Shown here in pieces: positions 3,494 to 59,845 of a DNA stretch of 64,000 bases. Positions within the stretch are counted from its first letter, which is position 1. Each line of letters begins with the position of its first letter. The translations under genes and the position numbers were made by a program. The DNA is from Methylobacterium sp. (lineage in GTDB: Bacteria; Pseudomonadota; Alphaproteobacteria; Rhizobiales; Beijerinckiaceae). The stretch lies in contig JADCBP010000002.1 of NCBI GenBank assembly GCA_020253445.1, positions 1-64,000 of the forward strand. The letters run 5' to 3'. The notes under the pieces are model-generated. The model was given only the letters and a program-made list of their open reading frames with translations, was not told the origin of the DNA and ran no database searches.

Positions 3494-4303
3494 GTGACCA
3501 CGGCCGAACCTCGCCTTCCCGCTCCGCCGGTGACGACGACCGATGTGCTGAAGGCCACCGCACTTCTGCTCATTGTGGTCGACCATGTCGGGCATTTCCT
3601 CGCGGATGACTGGGGGATCCTGCGTGTCATCGGCCGTCTCGGCGTGCCGATCTTCTTCTTTCTCATCGGCTTCGCCCGCAACCGGGATGTTCCGTGGAGC
3701 TGGCCGGCGCTCGGCATCTTGCTCACGGGCGTGGATTATCTCTCGCTCGGATCGCTCGAGAATGTGCAGCTCAACATTCTCTTCAATTTCGCGGCCATCC
3801 GCCTCGCCCTGCCGCTCGTGGAACGTTTCCTGGCGCTGAGCTTCCTGCGGCTGGCGCTTCTGCTTCTTGTCTGTGCCCTGCTGTTGCCGCTCGTCAATCC
3901 ATGGCTCGAATATGGTGCGGAGGGCTGGCTTTTCGCAGCTTTCGGACTGATGCATCGCAAGGCAATCGCCGATGCCTCCTTTAAACCCTTGCGCGACCTT
4001 TCGGGGCTGGTCGCCTTCGTGATCTATGCCGTGGTGGAGCAGCGGGATTATGGCTTCGCCCTGCCGAACACGGTTTTCTTGGTGCTGGGGCTCGCCGCCA
4101 TCGCGATGATCCTGCGGGATTTCCGGCGCGGGGATTCAATCATTCAACCCCCCTCGGGCCTGCGACGGGCCTTGCGGTTCTGCGGGCGGCACAGCCTTGA
4201 AATCTATGCCGCGCAGATCGTGCTGCTTGCGGCGCTCGGCAGCTTGTGGTCCACCGACGGGAACGACACCGAAACCGGGGATGCCGATGACCAGGCCGCT
4301 TGA
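3494..4303 (+). CDS. TraX-like family integral membrane protein (acyltransferase-like fold)
   Basis: About 269 residues from the GTG at 3494; no good ATG is available and a GTG at 3530 is an alternative. The N-terminus TTTDVLKATALLLIVVDHVG, with a following FLIGFARN segment, matches the TraX family signature (D-x-LK ... (I/V)DH). TraX of F plasmids acetylates pilin, and the family is related to membrane acyltransferases, with the His of the DH pair as the likely active-site residue. About eight to nine hydrophobic helices follow. The C-terminal helix contains FCGRHSLEIYAAQIVLL, also typical. The 3' end overlaps the CoA-transferase start by 17 bp, indicating co-transcription. Its substrate here is unknown. 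Confidence 0.7.
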   Translation: MTTAEPRLPAPPVTTTDVLKATALLLIVVDHVGHFLADDWGILRVIGRLGVPIFFFLIGFARNRDVPWSWPALGILLTGVDYLSLGSLENVQLNILFNFAAIRLALPLVERFLALSFLRLALLLLVCALLLPLVNPWLEYGAEGWLFAAFGLMHRKAIADASFKPLRDLSGLVAFVIYAVVEQRDYGFALPNTVFLVLGLAAIAMILRDFRRGDSIIQPPSGLRRALRFCGRHSLEIYAAQIVLLAALGSLWSTDGNDTETGDADDQAA

Positions 4304-5474
4304 GGGATTGAAGGTTCTCGAACTCGCGCGCATTCTTGCCGGGCCTTGGGTGGGGCAGACGCTCGCCGATCTCGGGGCGGATGTCGTGAAGGTGGAGCGC
4401 AAGGGCGCGGGCGACGATACGCGCACATGGGGCCCGCCCTTCGTGGCAAAGGCCGGCGGCGGCGACCTCGGCGCGGCCTATTTCCATGCCTGCAACCGGG
4501 GAAAGCGCTCGATCGAAGCGGATTTCGAAAGCGCCGAGGATATCGCGATGATCCGCGATCTCGTGCTCGCGGCGGATGTCGTGGTCGAGAATTTCAAGGT
4601 CGGGGGCCTCGTGAAATACGGGCTTGATGCGGAGAGCCTGCGCAAGCTGAAACCCTCGCTGATCTGCGCCTCGATCACCGGTTTCGGGCAGGATGGGCCC
4701 TATGCGGCTCGCGCGGGCTACGATTTCCTTATCCAGGGCATGGCGGGCGCGATGGATATCACCGGCCAGCCCGAGGGACAGCCGACCAAGGCCGGCTACG
4801 CGACCGCGGATATCTTCACCGGGATGTATGCGAGCGTGGCGATCCTCGCCGCCCTGCGCCGTCGCGATTCAACCGGCGAGGGCGCGACGATCGATTGTGC
4901 TTTGCTCGACAGCCAGATCGCGGTGCTCGGCAACCAGGCGCTGAACTATCTCGTTTCGGGCAAGACACCGCAGCGGCTGGGCAATGCGCACCCGAACATC
5001 GTTCCTTACGAAGTCTTTCCGGTCGCGGATGGCTACATCATCATCGCGAGCGGCAATGACGGGCAATATCGCAAGCTCTGCGCGGCGATCGGCGGGGAAG
5101 AACTCGCCGCGCATCCCGATTACGCCACCAATCGCGGCCGCGTGGAGAAGCGCGCAACCCTCGTGCCGCTGATCTCCGCGCTGACGGCGAAAATCCCGAA
5201 GGCCGAGATGCTCGCGCGGCTCGAGGCGGCGGGCGTGCCGGCCGGGCCGATCAACAACATCGGCGAGGTCTTCGCCGATCCGCAGGTGAACCATCGCCGG
5301 GTGCGCGTCGACCTTGCGAACCCGCAGGCCGAAGCCGGATTCGTGCCCTCCGTGCGCTCGGCGATTCTGCTCGACGGCGAGCCGCAGGTCTCGCCCCGCC
5401 ACGCGCCCGGCCTCGGGCAGCATAGGGCCGAGATCCTTGCTGATCCGAACTGGAACTCCCGCAGACAGGGCTGA
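4287..5474 (+). CDS. Class III (CaiB/BaiF family) CoA-transferase
   Basis: A 395-residue family III CoA-transferase. The start LEGLKVLELARILAGPWVGQ is the hallmark CaiB/BaiF N-terminus, which forms part of the interlocked-ring dimer. The catalytic aspartate that forms the acyl-anhydride is Asp146 in GYDFLIQGMAG. The ATG at 4287 is preferred because GGGG lies about 8 bases upstream. The start overlaps the end of the TraX-like gene, and the stop is only 2 bp from the next start, so a three-gene operon is likely. CoA-transferase plus TPP-enzyme pairing resembles frc-oxc oxalate loci, but the partner here is acetolactate-synthase-like. The acyl substrate cannot be read from sequence. Confidence 0.9.
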   Translation: MTRPLEGLKVLELARILAGPWVGQTLADLGADVVKVERKGAGDDTRTWGPPFVAKAGGGDLGAAYFHACNRGKRSIEADFESAEDIAMIRDLVLAADVVVENFKVGGLVKYGLDAESLRKLKPSLICASITGFGQDGPYAARAGYDFLIQGMAGAMDITGQPEGQPTKAGYATADIFTGMYASVAILAALRRRDSTGEGATIDCALLDSQIAVLGNQALNYLVSGKTPQRLGNAHPNIVPYEVFPVADGYIIIASGNDGQYRKLCAAIGGEELAAHPDYATNRGRVEKRATLVPLISALTAKIPKAEMLARLEAAGVPAGPINNIGEVFADPQVNHRRVRVDLANPQAEAGFVPSVRSAILLDGEPQVSPRHAPGLGQHRAEILADPNWNSRRQG

Positions 5475-5476
5475 TC

Positions 5477-7144
5477 ATGATTGCCATCGCTCCCCGCCGC
5501 GCCGCCGATATCCTCGTGGCACAACTCATCCGCCAGCAGGTGACCGACATCTTCTGCGTGCCGGGCGAAAGCTACCTCGCCGTGCTCGACAGCCTGCATG
5601 ACGCGTCCATTCGCGTCACAGTCTGCCGGCAGGAGGGCGGGGCCTGCATGATGGCCGATGCCGTGGGGCGCCTCACGGGCCGGCCGGGCATCTGCTTCGT
5701 CACGCGTGGGCCGGGGGCGCTGAATGCCGCGCCGGCGATCCATATCGCGCATCAGGATTCCATTCCGCTGATCCTGTTCGTGGGGCAGATCGAGCGTTCG
5801 GCGCGCGAGCGCGGCGCCTTCCAGGAGCTCGATTACCGCGATGTCTTTGGCTCCATGACCAAATGGACGACCGAGATCGACGATGCCGCGCGAATCCCCG
5901 AGATCATCCATCGCGCCTTCCATGTCGCGATGTCCGGCCGCAAGGGCCCGGTGGTGATCGCGCTGCCGGAGGACATGCTGACCGAGATGGCGGCGGTCGC
6001 CGATGCGCCTTTCGTGGAGCCGCTCGAGACGCACCCGTCGCTCTCGCAGATGGCGCAGCTCCAGAAGCGGCTCTGGGCCGCGAAGAGGCCGATCGTCATC
6101 ACGGGCGGCACCGGCTGGAGCCAGCAGGCGGTGGATCGCCTCGTGCGCTTCGCGGAAGCCTTCGACCTGCCGGTCTCGAATTCCTTCCGCCGACAGATGG
6201 TCTTCCCCGAGCGGCACGGCCAATATGTCGGCAATCTCGGCATCGGGCCGAACCCGCCGCTGCTGAAATACATCCGGGAGGCGGATCTCATCCTCGCGAT
6301 TGGCGCGCGCCTCGGCGAGATGCCCTCGCAGGGTTATTCGCTGCTGGACATTCCGGGCGATGGCGAAAGGCTCATCCATGTCCATGCAGGCTCGGATGAA
6401 CTCGGCCGCGTCTATGCGACGAAGTTGCCCATCCATGCGAGTATGGAAGCCTTCGCCGCAGCCTTGCAGACGCTTCAGCCGCCCGGAGAAAGGCCCTGGG
6501 CGGAGGCCCGGGCCGGCCTTCATGCGGAATATCGCAAATGGACCGAGGTGCCGACGAACATTCCCGGCACGCTTCAGATGGGCCCGGTGATGGCCTATCT
6601 GCGCGATCATCTCCCGGCTGATTCCGTGCTCTGCAACGGCGCGGGCAACTATGCGACCTGGCTCCACCGCTATTACATGTTCAACCGCTACGCGACGCAG
6701 GCAGCGCCGACTTCTGGCTCCATGGGCTATGGCGTGCCGGCGGCCGTGGGCGTGAAGCGCGCCTTTCCGGAAAAGACGGTGGTCGCTTTTGCCGGCGACG
6801 GCTGCTTCCTGATGAACGGGCAGGATTTCGCCACCGCCGTGCAATATGATCTTCCGATCATCGTGCTCGTCATCGACAACCGGATGTATGGCACCATCCG
6901 CATGCATCAGGAGCGGGAATTTCCTGGCCGCGTCTCCGCGACCGAATTGAAGAACCCGGATTTCGCGGCCTATGCGCGGGCCTTCGGCGGGCATGGCGAG
7001 CGGGTGGAGCGCACGGCGGAGTTCATTCCGGCTTTCGAGCGGGCCCGCGCCTCCGGCAAGCCGGCGATCCTGCACCTGCTGATTGACCCCGAGGCCATCA
7101 CCCCGACCACGACCATCACCGCCCTCCGCAACCATCAGCGCTGA
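5477..7144 (+). CDS. Thiamine-pyrophosphate enzyme, acetolactate synthase-like large subunit
   Basis: Protein of 555 residues with the three TPP-enzyme domains. The N-terminal Pyr domain has the cofactor-activating glutamate (Glu53 in CRQEGGACMMADA). A central domain begins around WAAKRPIVITGG. The C-terminal PP domain carries the metal/diphosphate motif from FAGDGCFLMNGQDFATA to VIDNRMYGT. It aligns best with stand-alone acetolactate-synthase-like or 2-oxoacid decarboxylase-like proteins; no regulatory subunit (ilvH) gene is nearby. It begins 2 bp after the CoA-transferase stop and is almost certainly translated from the same mRNA. The sequence does not decide between synthase, decarboxylase and oxalyl-CoA decarboxylase activity; I favour an uncharacterised branch acting with the CoA-transferase. 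Confidence 0.85.
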   Translation: MIAIAPRRAADILVAQLIRQQVTDIFCVPGESYLAVLDSLHDASIRVTVCRQEGGACMMADAVGRLTGRPGICFVTRGPGALNAAPAIHIAHQDSIPLILFVGQIERSARERGAFQELDYRDVFGSMTKWTTEIDDAARIPEIIHRAFHVAMSGRKGPVVIALPEDMLTEMAAVADAPFVEPLETHPSLSQMAQLQKRLWAAKRPIVITGGTGWSQQAVDRLVRFAEAFDLPVSNSFRRQMVFPERHGQYVGNLGIGPNPPLLKYIREADLILAIGARLGEMPSQGYSLLDIPGDGERLIHVHAGSDELGRVYATKLPIHASMEAFAAALQTLQPPGERPWAEARAGLHAEYRKWTEVPTNIPGTLQMGPVMAYLRDHLPADSVLCNGAGNYATWLHRYYMFNRYATQAAPTSGSMGYGVPAAVGVKRAFPEKTVVAFAGDGCFLMNGQDFATAVQYDLPIIVLVIDNRMYGTIRMHQEREFPGRVSATELKNPDFAAYARAFGGHGERVERTAEFIPAFERARASGKPAILHLLIDPEAITPTTTITALRNHQR

Positions 7145-9435: not shown

Positions 9436-10632
9436 TCAGGAAAATGTGCTGACACGCCGGATGCGCGGCAGGGTCGCCATTCCGATCAGGCCCATCAGGG
9501 CCGTCGCGGCCGTCAGCGCGACAGGGCTCTGCGCCACGAAAGCGCCCACCAGCGCCCCCACGATGGCCGCGAAGCTCATCTGCATGATCCCCAGCAGCGA
9601 CGAGACGCTGCCCGCGCGATCCGGGAACGGCATCAGCGCGCCGGCAGCGGATTGAGGCAGTGTGAAGCCCACGCCCATCGCGTAGAAGGCCATGGGCACG
9701 GCAAGCCCCGCCAACCAATATGGCATCACGAACGAAAAGCCCAGAAGCGCAAGGCCAGCGACCGCCTGCAGCACGGCGCCGATCTCGATGGCGCGCAGGC
9801 TTCCCTTCGAGGCCACCACCTTCTGCGCCATGACCGTGCCGAGGATGTAGCCCAGGACCATCACGCCGAAAGTGGCGGCAAAGCCGGCGGGGGAAAGACC
9901 GAAATGCCCCTGCATCACGAAGCTTGAGCCGGAGATGAAGGCGAAGAGCCCCGCATAGGTCACCGCGCTGAGCAACGCGAAGGACGTGAAGCGTCCGTCC
10001 CGGCAGAGTTCGCCATAGCCGCGCATGATCTCGCGCACCGAAAAGGGCGAAACGAGCGGTTGCCTCAGGGTCTCTGGCAGCCGGCGCGCCACCGCGATGC
10101 CCAGAGCGATCGCAAGAAACACCACGGCGAGGAAGTTCATCCGCCAGCCCGAGAGGATCTCGATGCCCGCGCCCAGCATCGGGGCGATGGCCGGCACGAT
10201 GCCCATGATCGTGCCCATGCGCGCCAACATTTGGCCGGCCTCGCGGCCTCCATGGAGATCGCGCACAATGGCGCGCGCCAGAACCATCGGTCCCGCCGCG
10301 CCCACCCCCTGCAGGAAGCGTGCGGCGATCAGCACCTCAAGACTGGGCGCCATGGCCGAGGCGAGGTTGGCGAAGGCATAAAGCGCGAGCCCGGCCAGCA
10401 TCACCTGCTTGCGGCCGCGACGATCGGACAACGGGCCGTAGAAGACCTGCCCCAAGGCGAAGCCGAGGAGATAGGCCGAGAGTGTCCACTGCGCTTGCGC
10501 GGTCGTTGCGCCGAAATGCTGCTGGATGCTCGGCAGCGAAGGCAGATACATGTCGGTCGAGAGCGGCCCGATGGCCGTCAGCAGGCCGAGGAGGATCGTC
10601 ATTCCCAGCGTGCCGGATTTCAAATGCGCCAT
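9436..10632 (-). CDS. Bcr/CflA-family MFS multidrug exporter
   Basis: A 398-residue, 12-helix major facilitator. The N-terminus contains TDMYLPSLPSIQQHFG, the Bcr/CflA (DHA1) signature after helix 1. The cytoplasmic loop 2-3 motif A is GPLSDRRGRKQVML. Helix 5 has a motif-C-like GPMVLARAIVRDLHGG region. The family exports bicyclomycin, chloramphenicol and other small drugs. It is transcribed convergently with the PBP gene and is about 70 bp downstream of the YgjP-like gene on the same strand. The specific substrate is unknown. Confidence 0.88.
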   Translation of the reverse strand: MAHLKSGTLGMTILLGLLTAIGPLSTDMYLPSLPSIQQHFGATTAQAQWTLSAYLLGFALGQVFYGPLSDRRGRKQVMLAGLALYAFANLASAMAPSLEVLIAARFLQGVGAAGPMVLARAIVRDLHGGREAGQMLARMGTIMGIVPAIAPMLGAGIEILSGWRMNFLAVVFLAIALGIAVARRLPETLRQPLVSPFSVREIMRGYGELCRDGRFTSFALLSAVTYAGLFAFISGSSFVMQGHFGLSPAGFAATFGVMVLGYILGTVMAQKVVASKGSLRAIEIGAVLQAVAGLALLGFSFVMPYWLAGLAVPMAFYAMGVGFTLPQSAAGALMPFPDRAGSVSSLLGIMQMSFAAIVGALVGAFVAQSPVALTAATALMGLIGMATLPRIRRVSTFS

Positions 10633-35460: not shown

Positions 35461-35543
35461 AGAGCATTTTCCGATCTGACCGGATCAGCTCGAATGCTCT
35501 ATCTCTCTGTCCGGTCGCATTTTCTTTGCGCGAACCGGTTGCC
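35461..35543. repeat. Type B palindrome followed by a partial type A copy
   Basis: 35461-35500 is a type B element: AGAGCATT at one end, AATGCTCT at the other, with the internal hairpin region GATCTGACCGGATCAGCTC. 35517-35543 is the first half of a type A copy (GCATTTTCTTTGCGCGAACCGG), interrupted before its right end. Both lie between the aceA-DUF4170 terminator and usg, in a gap (35309-35585) without any gene. Confidence 0.7.
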
Positions 35544-49135: not shown

Positions 49136-49516
49136 ATGCCGCTGACGCTCGCCCTGATCGCCCATGACAAGATGAAGCCGGTGCTGGCCGATTGGGCCGC
49201 CGAACACGAGGCAGCCCTCCGGCCGCACCGGCTCGTCTGCACCGGCACGACCGGCGGCGTGATTGCCGCGCGCTGCCCGTCGCTCGATATCACGCGCGTG
49301 GCCTCCGGCCCGCTGGGCGGCGACCAGCAGATCGGCGCGCTGATCGTCGAGAAGAGGATCGCCGGCATCATCTTCTTCATCGATCCGCTCTCGCCCATGC
49401 CGCATGACGTGGATGTGAAGGCGCTGACCCGCCTCGCCGTGGTCTATGATGTGCCGATCGCGATGAGCCGCTCCACGGCCGACCTCATGCTCAGGGGCGG
49501 GCTGCTGACGGCATGA
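49136..49516 (+). CDS. mgsA: Methylglyoxal synthase
   Basis: A 126-residue enzyme converting dihydroxyacetone phosphate to methylglyoxal, a bypass that releases phosphate when triose phosphates accumulate. Motifs: IAHDKMKP (His10), TGTTGGVI phosphate loop, [14 protein letters not shown] with catalytic Asp63, FFIDPL (Asp83) and MPHDVDV (His90). The length matches E. coli MgsA less its tail. It follows the amidohydrolase by 22 bp and overlaps the chrA start (ATGA), an unusual pairing. Confidence 0.93.
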
Positions 49517-50796
49517 GCGAAGCGCCGGCTACACCGTCTGCGCCACCTTCGCTCGCTGAACTCTTCCGCGTCTTCTTCCAGATCGGCTGCATTTCCTTCG
49601 GGGGGGCCGCCGGGCAGATCGCGCTCATGCACCGCATGCTCGTGGATGAGCGGAAATGGATCGAGGAGCGCGATTTCGTTTCGGGCCTCAATTTCTGCAC
49701 CCTTTTGCCGGGCCCGGAGGCGCAGCAGCTCGCGACCTATATCGGCTGGCGTCTGCATGGTCTTGCAGGCGGAACGATGGCCGGCCTGCTTTTCGTGCTG
49801 CCGGGCGCGGCGCTCATTCTTCTCCTCGCGCAGCTCTATGCCTGGGGCGCGAATCTGCCCTCCGTGCAGGCGGCGCTTCTCGGCGTGAAGGCAGCGGTGA
49901 TCGCCATCCTGATCGAGGCGGTGCTGAAGATCGGCAGGCGCGCGCTGGGCGCGAACGCCTTCCGTATGGTGGCTCTGGTCGCCTTCCTCGCGATGATGGC
50001 CTTCGCCGTGCCCTTTCCGGTCGTGATCCTGGGCGCGGCGCTCGCCGGCCTCTGGATCGGCGTGCCGCCTCCGCCCGCGACAGCCGCCGCGACCGCGCCG
50101 ATCCGGCTTCCCTGGCGTGCAGCGTTCCTCTGTCTCGCGCTGTGGTGGATGCCGGTTCTGTTGGCGGCGCTTGTGATGGGGCCGGGGCATCTGCTGGTGG
50201 AGGTGGGCCTGTTCTTCTCGAAGCTCGCGGTCATCACCTTTGGCGGGGCCTATGCTCTGCTGGCCTATCTCTCCGAAGAGGCTGTGTCGCGCGGCTGGGT
50301 GTCGCCCACGCAGATGCTCGATGCCCTGGGTTTCGCTGAAACCACCCCCGGCCCGACCATCCTCGTCAACCCCTTCGTGGCCTTCCTTGCCGGCTGGCAG
50401 AAGGAGGGGAGCGCGATCATCGCCTGGCTCGCGGGCCTGATGGCCCTGTGGACGACCTTCGCGCCGTCCTTCCTGTGGATCTTCGTCGGGTCGCCCTCGC
50501 TCGATCGCGTGAATGCAAACCGGGCCTTGCGCTCGGCGCTTGCGGGCATCAGCGCGGCAGTGGTGGGAATCATCGCGACGGTGGGTGCGAAATTCGCGAT
50601 CCTCGTGCTGTTCCCGCAAGCGAAGACATTTGTTTTCGGGCCGATCCAGCTTCTGGCCCCCGCCGGTTCGCCGGACATCAAGGCGATGCTGCTCGCGGCC
50701 CTGGCCCTGGCACTGAGTTTTCTCCTCCATTGGTCGATGCTGCGCATGCTCGGCATGGTCACGATTGCGGGATTGGCGCTGTTTTTCGTGGCTTAG
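49513..50796 (+). CDS. chrA: Chromate transporter ChrA (two-domain CHR family)
   Basis: A 427-residue CHR transporter with two homologous halves. The first half starts [21 protein letters not shown] and [20 protein letters not shown]; the second repeats it as [20 protein letters not shown] and [20 protein letters not shown]. These (S/T)FGG and PGP motifs are diagnostic. It exports or exchanges chromate, a sulfate-like anion; many homologues may have other anions as natural substrate. Translationally coupled to mgsA. Confidence 0.92.
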
Positions 50797-54812: not shown

Positions 54813-55027
54813 AGAGCATTTTCAAGCGAAGTGGGAACCGGTTCGCGCAAAGAAAATGCGATCAAGAAAAGAGAGGGGCATTTTCCGACCAGGTGGATAC
54901 CGGTTGGTCGAAGAAAATGCTCTAGAGCGCAAACCGATCTGACAGAATCAGATCTGGCGCTCTATCTTCTTGTTTTCGCATCCGCTTTTTCCGCCAACCG
55001 GTATCCACTTGGCGGGCGGATGCTCTA
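54813..55027. repeat. Cluster of palindromic repeats, types A and B
   Basis: Four elements back to back. 54813-54860 is a full type A copy in inverted orientation (AGAGCATTTTCAAGCGAAGT ... GAAAATGC). 54875-54922 is a diverged type A (GCATTTTCCGACCAGG ... GAAAATGCTCT). 54924-54963 is type B (AGAGCGC ... GCGCTCT around GATCTGACAGAATCAGATC). 54978-55027 is a third, diverged A-like copy (CGCATCCGCTTTTTCC ... GGCGGATGCTCTAG). CTAGA links the units. The cluster ends 52 bp before the phosphatidyltransferase start. The region 54298-54812 holds only the weak ORF described separately. Confidence 0.8.
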
Positions 55028-55078
55028 GATTGAGACAAATGTGATTTGGTGCGGCCGATTTCCGGGAGCGGAGCGAAG

Positions 55079-55681
55079 GTGTTCGACGCAAGTTTGGCCC
55101 CGCTGGCCACGCGCCTGCTCGCGCCTGCGGCGCATTGGCTTGATCGCCGCGGCTTGAGCGCCGATCAGGTGACGCTGACCGGTTTCGGAATCGGACTTCT
55201 CGCCGTTCCGCTTCTGGCCATCGGCGAGTTCGGCTGGGCACTCGCTGCCATCCTCGTGAACCGGGTTGCCGATGGGCTGGATGGTACGCTCGCGCGCCTG
55301 CAAGGACCCACCAGCCGGGGTGCCTTTCTTGATATCGCGCTGGATTTCGCCTTCTACGCGCTGGTTGTGCTGGGCTTCGCGCTGGCTGACCCGGCACGGA
55401 ACGCGCTGCCTGCCGCCGTGTTGCTCGCGGCTTTCATCGGGACGGGATCATCCTTTCTCGCTTTCTCGGTGATTGCCGAGCGCAAGGGGCTGGTTTCGAC
55501 GGATTTCACCGGCAAGGGCATCTTCTATCTCGGCGGGCTTGCGGAAGGCGCGGAAACCATCGCGTTCTTCCTGCTGGCAGGCCTCTGGCCGCAAGCCTTC
55601 CCCTGGCTGGCCTATGGCTTCGCCTTCGCCTGTATGCTGACCACGCTCTCCCGCTGGCGGGAAGGCTATCGCCGCTTTTGA
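55079..55681 (+). CDS. CDP-alcohol phosphatidyltransferase family protein
   Basis: A 200-residue membrane enzyme. The catalytic CDP-OH motif D-x2-D-G-x2-A-R-x8-G-x3-D-x3-D is intact: DGLDGTLARLQGP then SRGAFLDIALD. About six helices follow. It makes a phospholipid (phosphatidylglycerol-, inositol- or choline-like) from a CDP-linked donor and an alcohol. The GTG at 55079 with GGAG nearby is the best start; no ATG is available. It is convergent with the truncated nar genes, whose open frame runs antisense through its 3' half. Confidence 0.85.
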   Translation: MFDASLAPLATRLLAPAAHWLDRRGLSADQVTLTGFGIGLLAVPLLAIGEFGWALAAILVNRVADGLDGTLARLQGPTSRGAFLDIALDFAFYALVVLGFALADPARNALPAAVLLAAFIGTGSSFLAFSVIAERKGLVSTDFTGKGIFYLGGLAEGAETIAFFLLAGLWPQAFPWLAYGFAFACMLTTLSRWREGYRRF

Positions 55682-55699
55682 CGAGGCTTCACGTCTGCA

Positions 55700-56749
55700 C
55701 GCGTTGCCGCATGGTAGCCGGGCATTCTCGACCAGCGGCGAGGCGGCGAGGCGGCGCACCTGTCGCAGCTTCGCGGCGAGGCTGTCGACGCCACAATTCC
55801 CGGAAACGGCGCCGGGGCCGAAGAGCACTTCCTCTTCTTCCCAGGCTGCATCGAGGGCCGCGAGATCATCCGGCTCGGGGTCGGGCTCGGAGGCGACGCT
55901 CGCGGCCTCCCCGATGCGGTCGGCATCATAGAGCATCACGCCAAGATAGCGGATGCGCCCGACGCAGGTTTCGGAGCAGACCGTGGGCTGGCCCGCCTCG
56001 ATGCGCGGATAGCAAAAGATGCACTTCTCGCTCTTCCCGCTCGACCAGTTGAAATAGATCTTCTTGTAGGGGCAGCCGGAGACGCACATGCGCCAGCCGC
56101 GGCACTTGTCCTGATCGATCAGGACGATGCCGTCCTCCTCACGCTTGTAGATCGCGCCCGAGGGGCAGGAGGCGACGCAGGTGGGGTTGAGGCAATGCTC
56201 ACAGAGCCTTGGCAGATACATCATGAAGGTATTTTCGAACTGCCCGTAGATCTCCTTCTGCACGCCCTCGAAATTCGCATCCTTCGAACGCTTGGCGAAT
56301 TCGCCGCCGAGGATTTCCTCCCAGTTCGGGCCCCAGTTGATCTTCTCCATCCGCTCGCCGGTGATGAGCGAGCGCGGGCGCGCCGTGGGGAAGGCCTCAA
56401 GCTCCGGCGCCTTCTGCAGGTGCTCGTAATCGAAGGTGAAGGGCTCGTAGTAATCGTCGATTTCCGGCATGTCCGGATTGGCGAAAATATTCGCCAGCAC
56501 GCGCCACTTGCCGCCGATGCGCGGCTCGATCTTGCCGTTTTTCTTGCGGGTCCAGCCGCCTTTCCAGTGCTTCTGGTTTTCCCAATCCTTGGGGTAGCCG
56601 ATCCCCGGCTTGGTCTCGACATTGTTGAACCAAGCGTATTCCATGCCTTCCCGGTTGGTCCAGACGTTCTTGCATGTCACCGAGCAGGTGTGACAGCCGA
56701 TGCACTTGTCGAGGTTGAGCACCATCGCGATCTGCGCGCGGATTTTCAT
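55700..56749 (-). pseudogene. narH: Nitrate reductase beta subunit (narH), truncated and fused to a probable narJ tail
   Basis: Residues 1-285 are clearly NarH: MKIRAQIAMVLNLDKCIGCH plus all four cysteine groups (Cys16-26, 183-195, 216/222/226 with Trp219 of the 3Fe-4S site, 243-262), matching E. coli numbering almost exactly. After RIRYLGVMLYDADRIGEAAS the sequence leaves NarH, which normally continues for about 220 residues. It reads instead PDDLAALDAAWEEEEVLFGP and a later NCG segment, resembling the C-terminus of the chaperone NarJ. An in-frame deletion from mid-narH into narJ is the simplest explanation. The open frame then continues antisense into the phosphatidyltransferase gene (to 55448). 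No narI follows. Non-functional as a reductase subunit. Confidence 0.85.
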
Positions 56750-56761
56750 GGTTTCGTCTCC

Positions 56762-58444
56762 TTATTCGGCAGCCGTGGCGGCGGGATCGCGATAGGGACG
56801 CTCCAGCCAGTCGACATTCTTAATCTTGCGGATGACGACAAACTCGTCGCGATTGGTGCCAATCGTGCCGTAATAATTGAAATCATAGGCGAATTGGACA
56901 TATCCACCAATCATGTGGGTCGGCTTGAGAACGGCGCGTGTCACCGAGTTATGGATGCCGCCGCGCTGCCCGGTCATCTCCGAGCCAGGCACGTTCACGA
57001 TCTTCTCCTGCGCGTGGTACATGAAGAGGGTTCCCTCCTTCATGCGTTGCGACACCACCGCGCGGGCCACCAGAGCCCCGTTGGAATTGAAGGCTTCCAC
57101 CCAGTCGTTATCGACGATGCCCGCCTTCTTCGCATCGGTCTCGGAAAGCCAGACGATCGGCCCGCCGCGGCTGAGCGTGAGCATCAGCAGGTTGTCGGTA
57201 TAGGTGGAATGGATGCCCCATTTCTGGTGCGGGGTGATGAAGTTCAGGACGATCTCCGTCTCGCCATTGGGCCTGCTGCCCCTCACAGGGTGGATCGTCT
57301 TGAGATCAATCGGCGGACGATAGCTGCACAGGCTCTCGCCGAAGGCACGCATCCAGAGATGGTCCTGGTAGAGTTGCTGGCGGCCGGTGAGCGTGCGCCA
57401 CGGAATGAGCTCATGCACATTCGTGTAACTTGCATTGTAGCAAACCTTCTCGCTTTCGAGCCCGGACCAGGTTGGCGCCAAGATGATCTTGCGCGGCTGC
57501 GCCACGACATCGCGGAAGCGGATCTTCTCGTCTTCCTTCGGCAGAGCCAGATGGGCATGTTCGCGGCCCGTGGTTTTCGCGAGCGCCTCCCACGCCTTCA
57601 CGGCCACTTCGCCATTCGTCTCCGGCGCCATCATCAGGATGACTTCCGTGGCGTCGATATCCGAGACGATGCGGGCGAGGCCCTTGTTCGCGCCCTCGGC
57701 ATGCACGCCATTCAGCGCCTTGAGGTGCTCCACCTCATGCCCGGTCTTCCAGGTCATGCCCTTGATGCCGTTGCCGACATTCTCCATCAGCGGGCCGAGC
57801 GCGGTGAAACGCTCGTAGGTGTGGGGGTAATCGCGCATCACCGGCGTCACCACCGGCATGGTCTTGCCGGGGATTGGCTCACATTCGCCGCTCTTCCAGT
57901 CCTTGGGTTCGAAGGCCTGCGCGACTTCCATCGCAGTATCGTGCTTGATGGGGTTCAGCACGATGTCGGTCTCTTCGCCCAGCACTTCCGGTGAGACGCG
58001 GGAGAAGGCCCTGGCGATGCCCTTGTAGATCTCCCAATCCGATTTCGCTTCCCAGGCCGGGTCCACTGCGCTAGAGAGCGGATGGATGAAGGGGTGAATG
58101 TCGGAGGTGTTGAGGTCGTTCTTCTCATACCAGGTGGCCGTGGGCAGCACGATATCCGAGTAGACGCAGGTGTTGGACATGCGGAAATCGAGCGTCACCA
58201 GCAGGTCGAGCTTGCCTTCGGGCGCATTCTCGACCCAGTTCACCTCTTTCGTGCCCGCGGCCTGGGCCGAGCCAAGATCCCGCCCCAGCACGCCGTGGCT
58301 GGTGCCCAGCAGGTGCTTCAGGAAGTATTCGTGCCCCTTGCCGGACGAGCCGAGCAGGTTGGAGCGCCAGACGGACATGTTGCGCGGCCAGTTTTTCGGA
58401 TTGTCCGGGTCCTCCCAGGCGAAGCGGAGCTCGCCGCTCTTCAA
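56762..58444 (-). pseudogene. narG: Nitrate reductase alpha subunit (narG), lacking the 5' half
   Basis: The open frame encodes only the C-terminal 560 residues of about 1,240. It starts within the NarG text ...KSGELRFAWEDPDNPKNWPR and continues through VWRSNLLGSSGKGHE, DIVLPTATWYEKNDLNTSD, HELIPWRTLTGRQQLYQDH, GGIHNSVTRAVLKPTHMIGG and NYYGTIGTNRDEFVV to a normal end. The missing half holds the FS0 iron-sulfur site and much of the Mo-bisMGD pocket including the molybdenum Asp ligand. In-frame homology extends a few codons upstream of 58444, to a stop near 58460, then ends abruptly at the foreign-looking DNA. The 12-bp spacing to narH is the original operon spacing. A deletion or insertion event removed the 5' half. 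Confidence 0.93.
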
Positions 58445-58522
58445 CCCTTTCGCGCCGGCTCATTCTGACAGTGGCGGCTAGCGCCATAACAGATGCACAT
58501 ATAGGCCGTTTGGAGCAAAATC

Positions 58523-59467
58523 ATGCTTGAGGACCATGCCAACCGAGCAGAGGTTCCTTGGCCACAATTTGCCGCCGACCAGCGACGCGCTTTCTTGCTG
58601 AACCGACTTTCAGATTGGGAAGCGCCTGATGGGAAAAATTACCCTGCTCATTCACTTCGCTATCGGCTGCTCGAAGAGCTCACCAAAGACGCAGTGTTGA
58701 AGGTAAGTGCGACGAGCCAGCGCCGTGAAGCTGACCTTCAGAACGCCCTTCTCGACGCAGAAGAGCTAGTCAACGGCTTGTGGGACGCTGCCACCTCTTT
58801 CGAGGCTGACAGGAATCGGCGCGAATTCCTCAACTTTTGGCGGCACGCTGACAACCCAGCTTTGGTGATCAAGAATAAGGCTTACAAGTTGCCTGTTCGG
58901 AGTGAGGTTGAAGGTATCGCCTCGCACTACCTGAAGCAGTCTTTGCGTAGCCAGATGTTTGATCGGACTTTAGCCGATATGTTGCTGGCGCAAGAGCTTT
59001 ATCAATTTGCAGATGAGATGATCCACCCCGTCACGTTTCCCGGACTCCCATCGGCTTCGTCGCTAAAACAATCGCACCCACTGTGGCGCTTCGTTCGTGA
59101 AAACCTGATTGTTACCATTCTGTTTGCAGCGATCGGCTTTGCTGCAGCCTTCGGAATGCGAAATGGTATAGTTGGGGATTGGGCCGGGTGGATCGTCGGG
59201 GCGTGTTTTGCGCTTTGGTTCATAAACATCGCATGGTCATTCCTCGTGCTTCCATTTGTTTGGATGAAATGGTCGAAAGACCGAAAAAAGGTGCTGCAAC
59301 TGCTGGAAGTCATGGGCGCGACTTACGCACTGATGCATTCCGATGCTGTGATTTCAGCCAACCATGTTCTTGAAAGCGTGAAGGCATCAAGCGCCAGTGG
59401 CGTTGTTTGGCCCTCCCCGATTTACGTCCTGCTCGAAGATGTAATCTCGCGGGGCGGTCGTTTCTAA
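58523..59467 (+). CDS. Hypothetical two-helix membrane protein of foreign composition
   Basis: A 314-residue protein with visibly lower G+C and A/T-rich third positions compared with all neighbours, a sign of recent transfer. Residues 1-180 are soluble and mainly helical (LEELTKDAVLKVSATSQRRE, EFLNFWRHADNP). Two transmembrane helices follow (about 193-213 and 220-247), then a cytoplasmic tail with KKVLQLLEVMGATYALMHSD and a terminal WPSPIYVLLEDVISRGGRF. GGAG is seven bases upstream of the ATG. It lies exactly between the truncated narG and the 3' end of tRNA-Ser. I recognise no family; no integrase is present. Confidence 0.75.
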   Translation: MLEDHANRAEVPWPQFAADQRRAFLLNRLSDWEAPDGKNYPAHSLRYRLLEELTKDAVLKVSATSQRREADLQNALLDAEELVNGLWDAATSFEADRNRREFLNFWRHADNPALVIKNKAYKLPVRSEVEGIASHYLKQSLRSQMFDRTLADMLLAQELYQFADEMIHPVTFPGLPSASSLKQSHPLWRFVRENLIVTILFAAIGFAAAFGMRNGIVGDWAGWIVGACFALWFINIAWSFLVLPFVWMKWSKDRKKVLQLLEVMGATYALMHSDAVISANHVLESVKASSASGVVWPSPIYVLLEDVISRGGRF

Positions 59468-59619
59468 ATTCGCCTGAAATAGGCAGGCCGCACATTGGAC
59501 AAGCGCGCTGTCCGTTAGACGGCACGGCTCGACAGAGGCCCTAGCGACTCCCTTTTAGGGGAGCTATTATGGGGACGAGGGGAGTTAATTGCAGAAACCG
59601 CTTTATTTTCAAATGGTAA

Positions 59620-59709
59620 TGGCGGACAGGGAGGGATTCGAACCCTCGATAGAGTTGCCCCTATACACGCGTTCCAGGCGTGCGCCTTCAACCACTCGGC
59701 CACCTGTCC
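59620..59709 (-). tRNA. tRNA-Ser (anticodon GGA)
   Basis: A 90-nt class II tRNA on the minus strand with encoded CCA. The acceptor stem is GGACAGG / CCTGTCC with discriminator G. The D-arm contains GTGGCCGAGTGGTTGAAGG. The anticodon loop is CTGGAAC, giving GGA (reads UCC/UCU). A long variable arm (TATAGGGGCAACTCTA) marks it as serine type, and the T-arm is GGGTTCGAATCCC. Its first 30 nt are duplicated just upstream. Confidence 0.96.
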
Positions 59710-59845
59710 GTCCGCCTGCGCCCATCAGGCGCACGCATTTCTTTCCGAGGACAGATGCGATGCCCGAGGCATCGCTGTGCGCCTTCAACCACTCGGCCAC
59801 CTGTCCGTCCGCCTGCGCCCATCAGGCGCACGCATTTCTTTCCGA
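59680..59845. repeat. 69-bp exact direct repeat: duplicated 5' end of tRNA-Ser
   Basis: 59680-59748 and 59777-59845 are identical (69 bp, 97-bp period, 28-bp spacer). Each copy contains the first 30 nt of tRNA-Ser (59680-59709) plus 39 bp of its upstream flank, which includes the hairpin-forming GCCTGATGGGCGCAGGC-type text. The second copy is an orphan tRNA 5' fragment upstream of the real gene. The remainder of 59846-60057 up to msrA holds no gene that I can support. Confidence 0.9.

Follow-up and report, generated by a model that had tools for sequence, protein, structure and literature searches.

The window analyzed here is the first 64 kb of a 164-kb contig (C11) from a 3.28 Mb genome of a genus in the Beijerinckiaceae, assembled into 18 contigs with a completeness score of 100 and a contamination score of 0.02. 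It contains pieces of a respiratory nitrate reductase (nar) operon, which none of the paper titles listed in our literature searches concerned. They lie between cdp, an intact gene for a CDP-alcohol phosphatidyltransferase (55046..55681, plus strand; PF01066), and a tRNA-Ser(GGA) gene (59620..59709, minus strand). We compared this locus with 16 other genomes of the genus and use as our main reference L027, an intact nar operon on contig C7 of the relative G007.

Pieces of a nitrate reductase operon

The 3′ part of narG, about 563 codons and the stop codon, occupies 56762..58456 on the minus strand and was delimited by alignment to Escherichia coli NarG, by profile TIGR01580 and by comparison within the genus. 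Positions 56762-58459 align with residues 685-1239 of the E. coli protein (E 2.4e-270) and cover TIGR01580 positions 684-1235 of 1235, confirming the preliminary description of this locus, in which narG starts in mid-protein with about 560 residues left, and falling short of a complete NarG. An in-frame TGA stands immediately upstream of the fragment, its first listed start is a TTG at 58444, and in the furthest-reaching loci DNA homology ends at 58450-58458. The narG stop is separated from the narH ATG by 12 bp, the spacing found in L027, so the retention of this distance reported earlier holds. The 5′ part of narH (about 286 codons; 55885..56749, minus strand), recognized by blastn to relatives and by TIGR01660, matches profile positions 1-290 of 492; narH in L027 spans all of 1-492, and a complete NarH is therefore missing from the window. 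Both pieces are free of stops and frameshifts, and together they share 81-91% DNA identity with the copies in the genus.

Beyond narH, we mapped positions 55681-55910 by blastn against 12 loci fetched from 11 genomes of the genus. The first stub is the 3′ end of narJ (about 143 bp; 55746..55890, minus strand), which encodes only the C-terminal tail and matches L027 6833-6975, part of a gene recognized as narJ by TIGR00684, at 90% identity; the best alignment covers 55746-55888 with 90.2% identity over 143 bp (E 4e-52). Matches to narJ were recovered from 11 of the 12 loci, with left ends at 55742-55759 and right ends at 55888-55905, and the exception, L026 on contig C21 of G007, comes from a contig that stops within narG. 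Because the TIGR00684 domain corresponds to residues 8-160 of the 250 in the L027 protein and the surviving piece lies beyond it, the NarJ tail is invisible to a profile search. The comparison with relatives thus bears out the earlier claim that narH runs openly into NarJ-like sequence, except that the real narJ piece amounts to 47 codons and not to 60 residues.

Two smaller fragments follow. The first, 46 bp at 55717..55762 (minus strand), derives from a beta-carbonic anhydrase gene; it is 87% identical to L027 3726-3771, which lies in a gene matching PF00484, and 10 of the 12 loci match it at E < 0.01 with identities of 76-87% (weakest E 0.003). In L027 the carbonic anhydrase gene sits about 3.1 kb farther downstream of narJ, with narI, a PpiC-type isomerase gene and a hemerythrin-like gene in between. 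The second fragment, 41 bp at 55683..55723 (minus strand), comes from a DUF1045 gene of a phosphonate operon, with 35 of 41 bp identical to positions 1350-1310 of locus L056 in the sister genome G010 (E 2e-7 in one search and 1e-8 in another). The match to a further sister genome, G004, is weak when taken alone (73%, E 0.12). In both sisters this gene adjoins cdp, and the corresponding bases are found some 780 bp past cdp, oriented as they are in the window. The preliminary description was right overall about the wreck, and it overlooked both of these fragments and the phosphonate-operon context.

The pieces are spanned by an open frame of 433 codons (55448..56749, minus strand), in which narH, the narJ tail and the carbonic anhydrase fragment are joined in frame; it then reads through the DUF1045 piece in a different register and ends antisense to cdp. 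A chance fusion of narH, narJ and carbonic anhydrase is the best explanation of this frame, which needs no function, since two in-frame joins in a row are expected about once in nine cases. We rejected a functional fusion protein as the leading explanation on the same grounds and because the frame finishes on the antisense strand of the neighboring gene.

The interval between cdp and tRNA-Ser

On the left of the scar, cdp is 94-95% identical at the amino acid level in G004 and G010 (94% in G004), and DNA homology to both genomes stops at 55682. To the right of narG, a segment of about 52% GC (58457..59619), recognized from the GC profile against surroundings of about 57-67%, contains an orphan ORF of 314 amino acids (58523-59467, plus strand) that is present in 1 of 298 family genomes, namely this one. 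It had no match in Pfam, PADLOC, viral contigs, plasmids or the 297 other family genomes, and the weak matches that we did see came from NCBIfam (E 0.025 and 0.039) and PHROGs (E 0.47). The 3′ end of the tRNA gene closes the variable interval, and the DNA from 59620 on continues in G004, G005 and G007. A perfect 69-bp direct repeat (59680-59748 and 59777-59845) comprises the 5′ part of this tRNA gene and the region upstream of it; by alignment, two copies are present in relatives L162 and L163 and one copy in L161 and L165.

The distance from cdp to tRNA-Ser is 3.9 kb in the window, about 24.8 kb in G004 and about 12.4 kb in G005. In the latter two genomes, cdp and the tRNA-Ser region lie in the same order on one contig with a phosphonate operon between them, accompanied by extra genes in G004, where no nar genes were found. 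Among the phosphonate genes, PhnM and the DUF1045 protein were tested with profiles, and the remaining labels rest on reading and DNA similarity. In G007, other transporter genes, labeled by reading, adjoin the tRNA gene. We rejected the idea that the phosphonate operon was lost from the genome altogether, as contig C12 still carries a copy, next to genes resembling pqqB-E that were labeled by reading. The 41-bp DUF1045 piece fits the G010 copy (85%) and has no match to the C12 copy at E <= 1.

Several other features of the surroundings deserve mention. The C12 phosphonate operon (L179, from position 9554 onwards of contig C12 in the genome under study, G000) is 87.5% identical in DNA to that of G004, and window stretches to the left of the scar are mostly 92-95% identical, with parts at 85-87%; these values perhaps hint that the C12 copy is foreign. 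A dispersed repeat of about 40-60 bp occurs at 54813-54874, 104-148 and 35494-35539, at 3422-3467 of L179, and in relatives at L032 and L059. At 49500-49546, about 1 kb of the sister sequence (G004, L055 3478-4484) is missing from the window, a further indel between the two.

Missing parts and the age of the loss

We looked for the missing parts elsewhere in the assembly and did not find the narG 5′ half, the NarJ domain or narI. Searching the genome with the protein of the narG 3′ half returned no second 3′ half; the other match fell within a 964-codon frame whose visible 760-770 amino acids, by reading, resemble the alpha subunit of a formate dehydrogenase. TIGR00684 had no match in the genome, against matches in 4 of 14 control genomes, and neither did TIGR00351, which matched in 3 of the 14, so that a NarJ domain and NarI are both absent by profile and the earlier statement that narI is gone stands. 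The 9.7-kb upstream cluster of a relative gave no DNA match to the narG 5′ half or to narK, in a search that a strongly diverged narK might escape. With the 10.2-kb downstream cluster of L027 as query, nothing in the genome matched within positions 3772-6832. In these searches the window pieces were the only nar matches in the genome; other hits were weak or fell outside narK, narG, narH, narJ and narI.

Relatives, by comparison, commonly carry a long narG. Eleven of the other 16 genomes in the genus have narG in an open frame of at least 1,240 amino acids, among them G007, where a contig end cuts the frame. In G004, G005, G010, G011 and G016, narG was represented only by weak paralogue matches (the G005 and G010 genomes are only 83% and 78% complete). 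Two internal segments of L027 are absent from the window, one of about 1.2 kb from narJ to narH and one of about 3.1 kb from the carbonic anhydrase gene to narJ that includes narI. Together with the loss of the narG 5′ half, they support the earlier proposal of two or more large deletions. The surviving pieces are collinear with narG-H-J-I-...-can, as the preliminary description had it, and every matched piece keeps its ancestral order and strand; we saw none that was inverted or displaced. The locus is therefore a set of collinear fragments of an operon that is intact in relatives and whose missing parts were not found elsewhere in the genome.

That the loss is recent and not a product of point decay was a further claim, and it has some support. 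The frames are open, and the narG and narH pieces are 88-91% identical in DNA to their closest copies; among 80 of at least 592 matching stretches, the top identity is 92%, so that none of these 80 is a record of the same strain. The nearest named ones are two Beijerinckiaceae MAG contigs with 91-92% NarG identity. What tempers the claim is a hint of early point decay in narG. At sites where five outgroups agree, the narG branch leading to this genome carries 16 synonymous and 17 nonsynonymous changes and that of the sister copy 13 and 1 (Fisher P 0.007). When a single outgroup is used, the counts are 50:23 and 41:9 (P 0.10). The window narG alters 8 of 417 invariant columns, within the range of 0-8 among 13 other copies, of which the intact L025 also has 8. 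For narH, the counts are 8:3 and 6:2 (P 1), or 20:4 and 13:5 with one outgroup (P 0.46), and none of 249 invariant columns is altered. On modest evidence, these comparisons fit a recent loss after which narG, though not narH, began to drift.

Synonymous distances are 0.40 for narG (to G007 contig C21) and 0.26 for narH (to G007 contig C7), below those of two core genes, msrA (0.57) and nhaA (0.62). As nar is also the slower between other genomes of the genus, such as G003 and G015 (narG 0.83 and narH 0.46, compared to nhaA 1.03 and msrA 1.50), the low values do not separate a vertical from a horizontal origin. G007 itself has two narG copies, on C21 and C7, with 82% DNA identity where they overlap. 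Its C7 contig pairs a narH close to that of the window (dS 0.26) with a distant narG (dS 0.83), which may point to recombination within the nar operon or to a mixed bin.

Joins, mechanism and meaning

We printed the five joins of the scar against their parental sequences. No shared bases are seen at the join of cdp and DUF1045. The DUF1045/carbonic anhydrase join has about 7 imperfect bp, of which about 3 are strictly shared, and the carbonic anhydrase/narJ join has 17 imperfect bp, of which the parents share 12, 13, 13 and 13 in the four relatives tested. At the narJ/narH join both parents fit over 4 bp (G007) or 6 bp (narJ of G012 with narH of G007), and the right-hand partner at the narG join is unmatched. 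Random joins of L027 genes gave runs of at least 3 bp at about 7%, at least 4 bp at 2.7% and at least 6 bp at 0.3%, and 0.05% of random 17-mer pairs share at least 12 of 17 bases; since the breakpoint positions come from the alignments themselves and the 17-mers were picked as best fits to the window, these comparisons favor overlap. By this reading of the alignments, short homology appears clear where carbonic anhydrase meets narJ and moderate where narJ meets narH, but weak between DUF1045 and carbonic anhydrase and absent between cdp and DUF1045.

We conclude, with a probability of about 0.86, that the nar locus is the dead remnant of a narGHJI operon left by successive deletions. These would have taken out the 5′ half of narG, the 3′ half of narH together with the core of narJ, and a stretch running from narI into the carbonic anhydrase gene, most of which was lost. 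The phosphonate genes that occupy the interval in sister species would have been deleted as well. We infer the mechanism as well as the number and order of the events: the joins were probably illegitimate (RecA-independent) and aided by short similar stretches, and the surviving stubs would have stayed in order, with two joins falling in frame by chance to give the 433-codon ORF. Since each matched piece retains its order and strand, an arrangement that deletions yield for free, a series of deletions offers the simplest account. The same arrangement weighs against a single complex event, in which template switching during replication built the whole mosaic. Such an event would suit a string of pieces as short as 41, 46 and 143 bp with short similarity at some joins, but with the ancestral arrangement kept and no inverted or displaced piece seen, we regard it as improbable.

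The assembly must also be considered, since this is a draft genome of 18 contigs and the joins are known from the assembly alone. Reads from an intact operon could have been misjoined, so that the deletions are absent from the organism. Such an artefact would have to produce five successive joins between collinear pieces, the small pieces match no sampled parent at more than 85-90% identity, and the missing parts were not found in an assembly with the scores given above; we consider it very unlikely. It is harder still to believe that the truncated narGH pair or a chimeric iron-sulfur protein of 433 amino acids has been retained for a new function. The open frames, the two in-frame joins and a narH part unaltered at 249 of 249 invariant columns would fit such a role, but the joins would fall in frame by luck often enough, narG hints at relaxed selection, the frame ends antisense to cdp, and recent loss accounts for the open frames. 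It is from this balance that we infer a lack of function.

In comparison with the known narGHJI respiratory nitrate reductase (TIGR01580, TIGR01660, TIGR00684 and TIGR00351), the window shares the gene order and the 12-bp spacing, but it holds only the narG 3′ part, the narH 5′ part and the narJ tail, with narI and narK not found. A study of Streptococcus agalactiae traces the majority of indels in a lineage under reductive evolution to RecA-independent recombination, as deletions between short repeats, and states that large deletions may comprise several consecutive ones (PMC3637634); deletions there are lineage-wide, whereas ours affect a single alphaproteobacterial locus. Variable segments in E. 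coli have likewise been attributed largely to illegitimate recombination, in a comparison within a species (PMC2884548), while ours is between species. In Thermus thermophilus NAR1, partial loss of denitrification is ascribed to recent deletions and IS insertions (PMC7694296); nitrite-respiration genes and insertion sequences are involved there, whereas the scar concerns nar genes and showed no IS at casual inspection. The nar scar is ordinary gene loss in kind and well resolved in detail.

A broader possibility, which we consider doubtful, is that the interval from cdp to tRNA-Ser is a replacement hotspot. Whole respiratory or catabolic modules (for phosphonate use, nitrate respiration or transport) would enter it by exchange and later be broken up by deletions at short homologies, through a single multi-jump event or a few of them. 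If so, chimeric open frames would be left behind as raw material for new proteins.

These results carry a warning for annotation, as the remnants would receive narG and narH labels, and the narH-narJ-carbonic anhydrase chimera is likely to enter databases as a false fusion protein. A complete nitrate reductase is impossible here, since the N-terminal half of NarG and about the last 40% of NarH are missing, as is the whole of NarI. Because neither narI nor a complete narG was found, nitrate respiration via Nar should not be predicted for this organism from the pieces. The scar displays, nearly base by base, the loss of a respiratory operon by deletions and not by point mutation.
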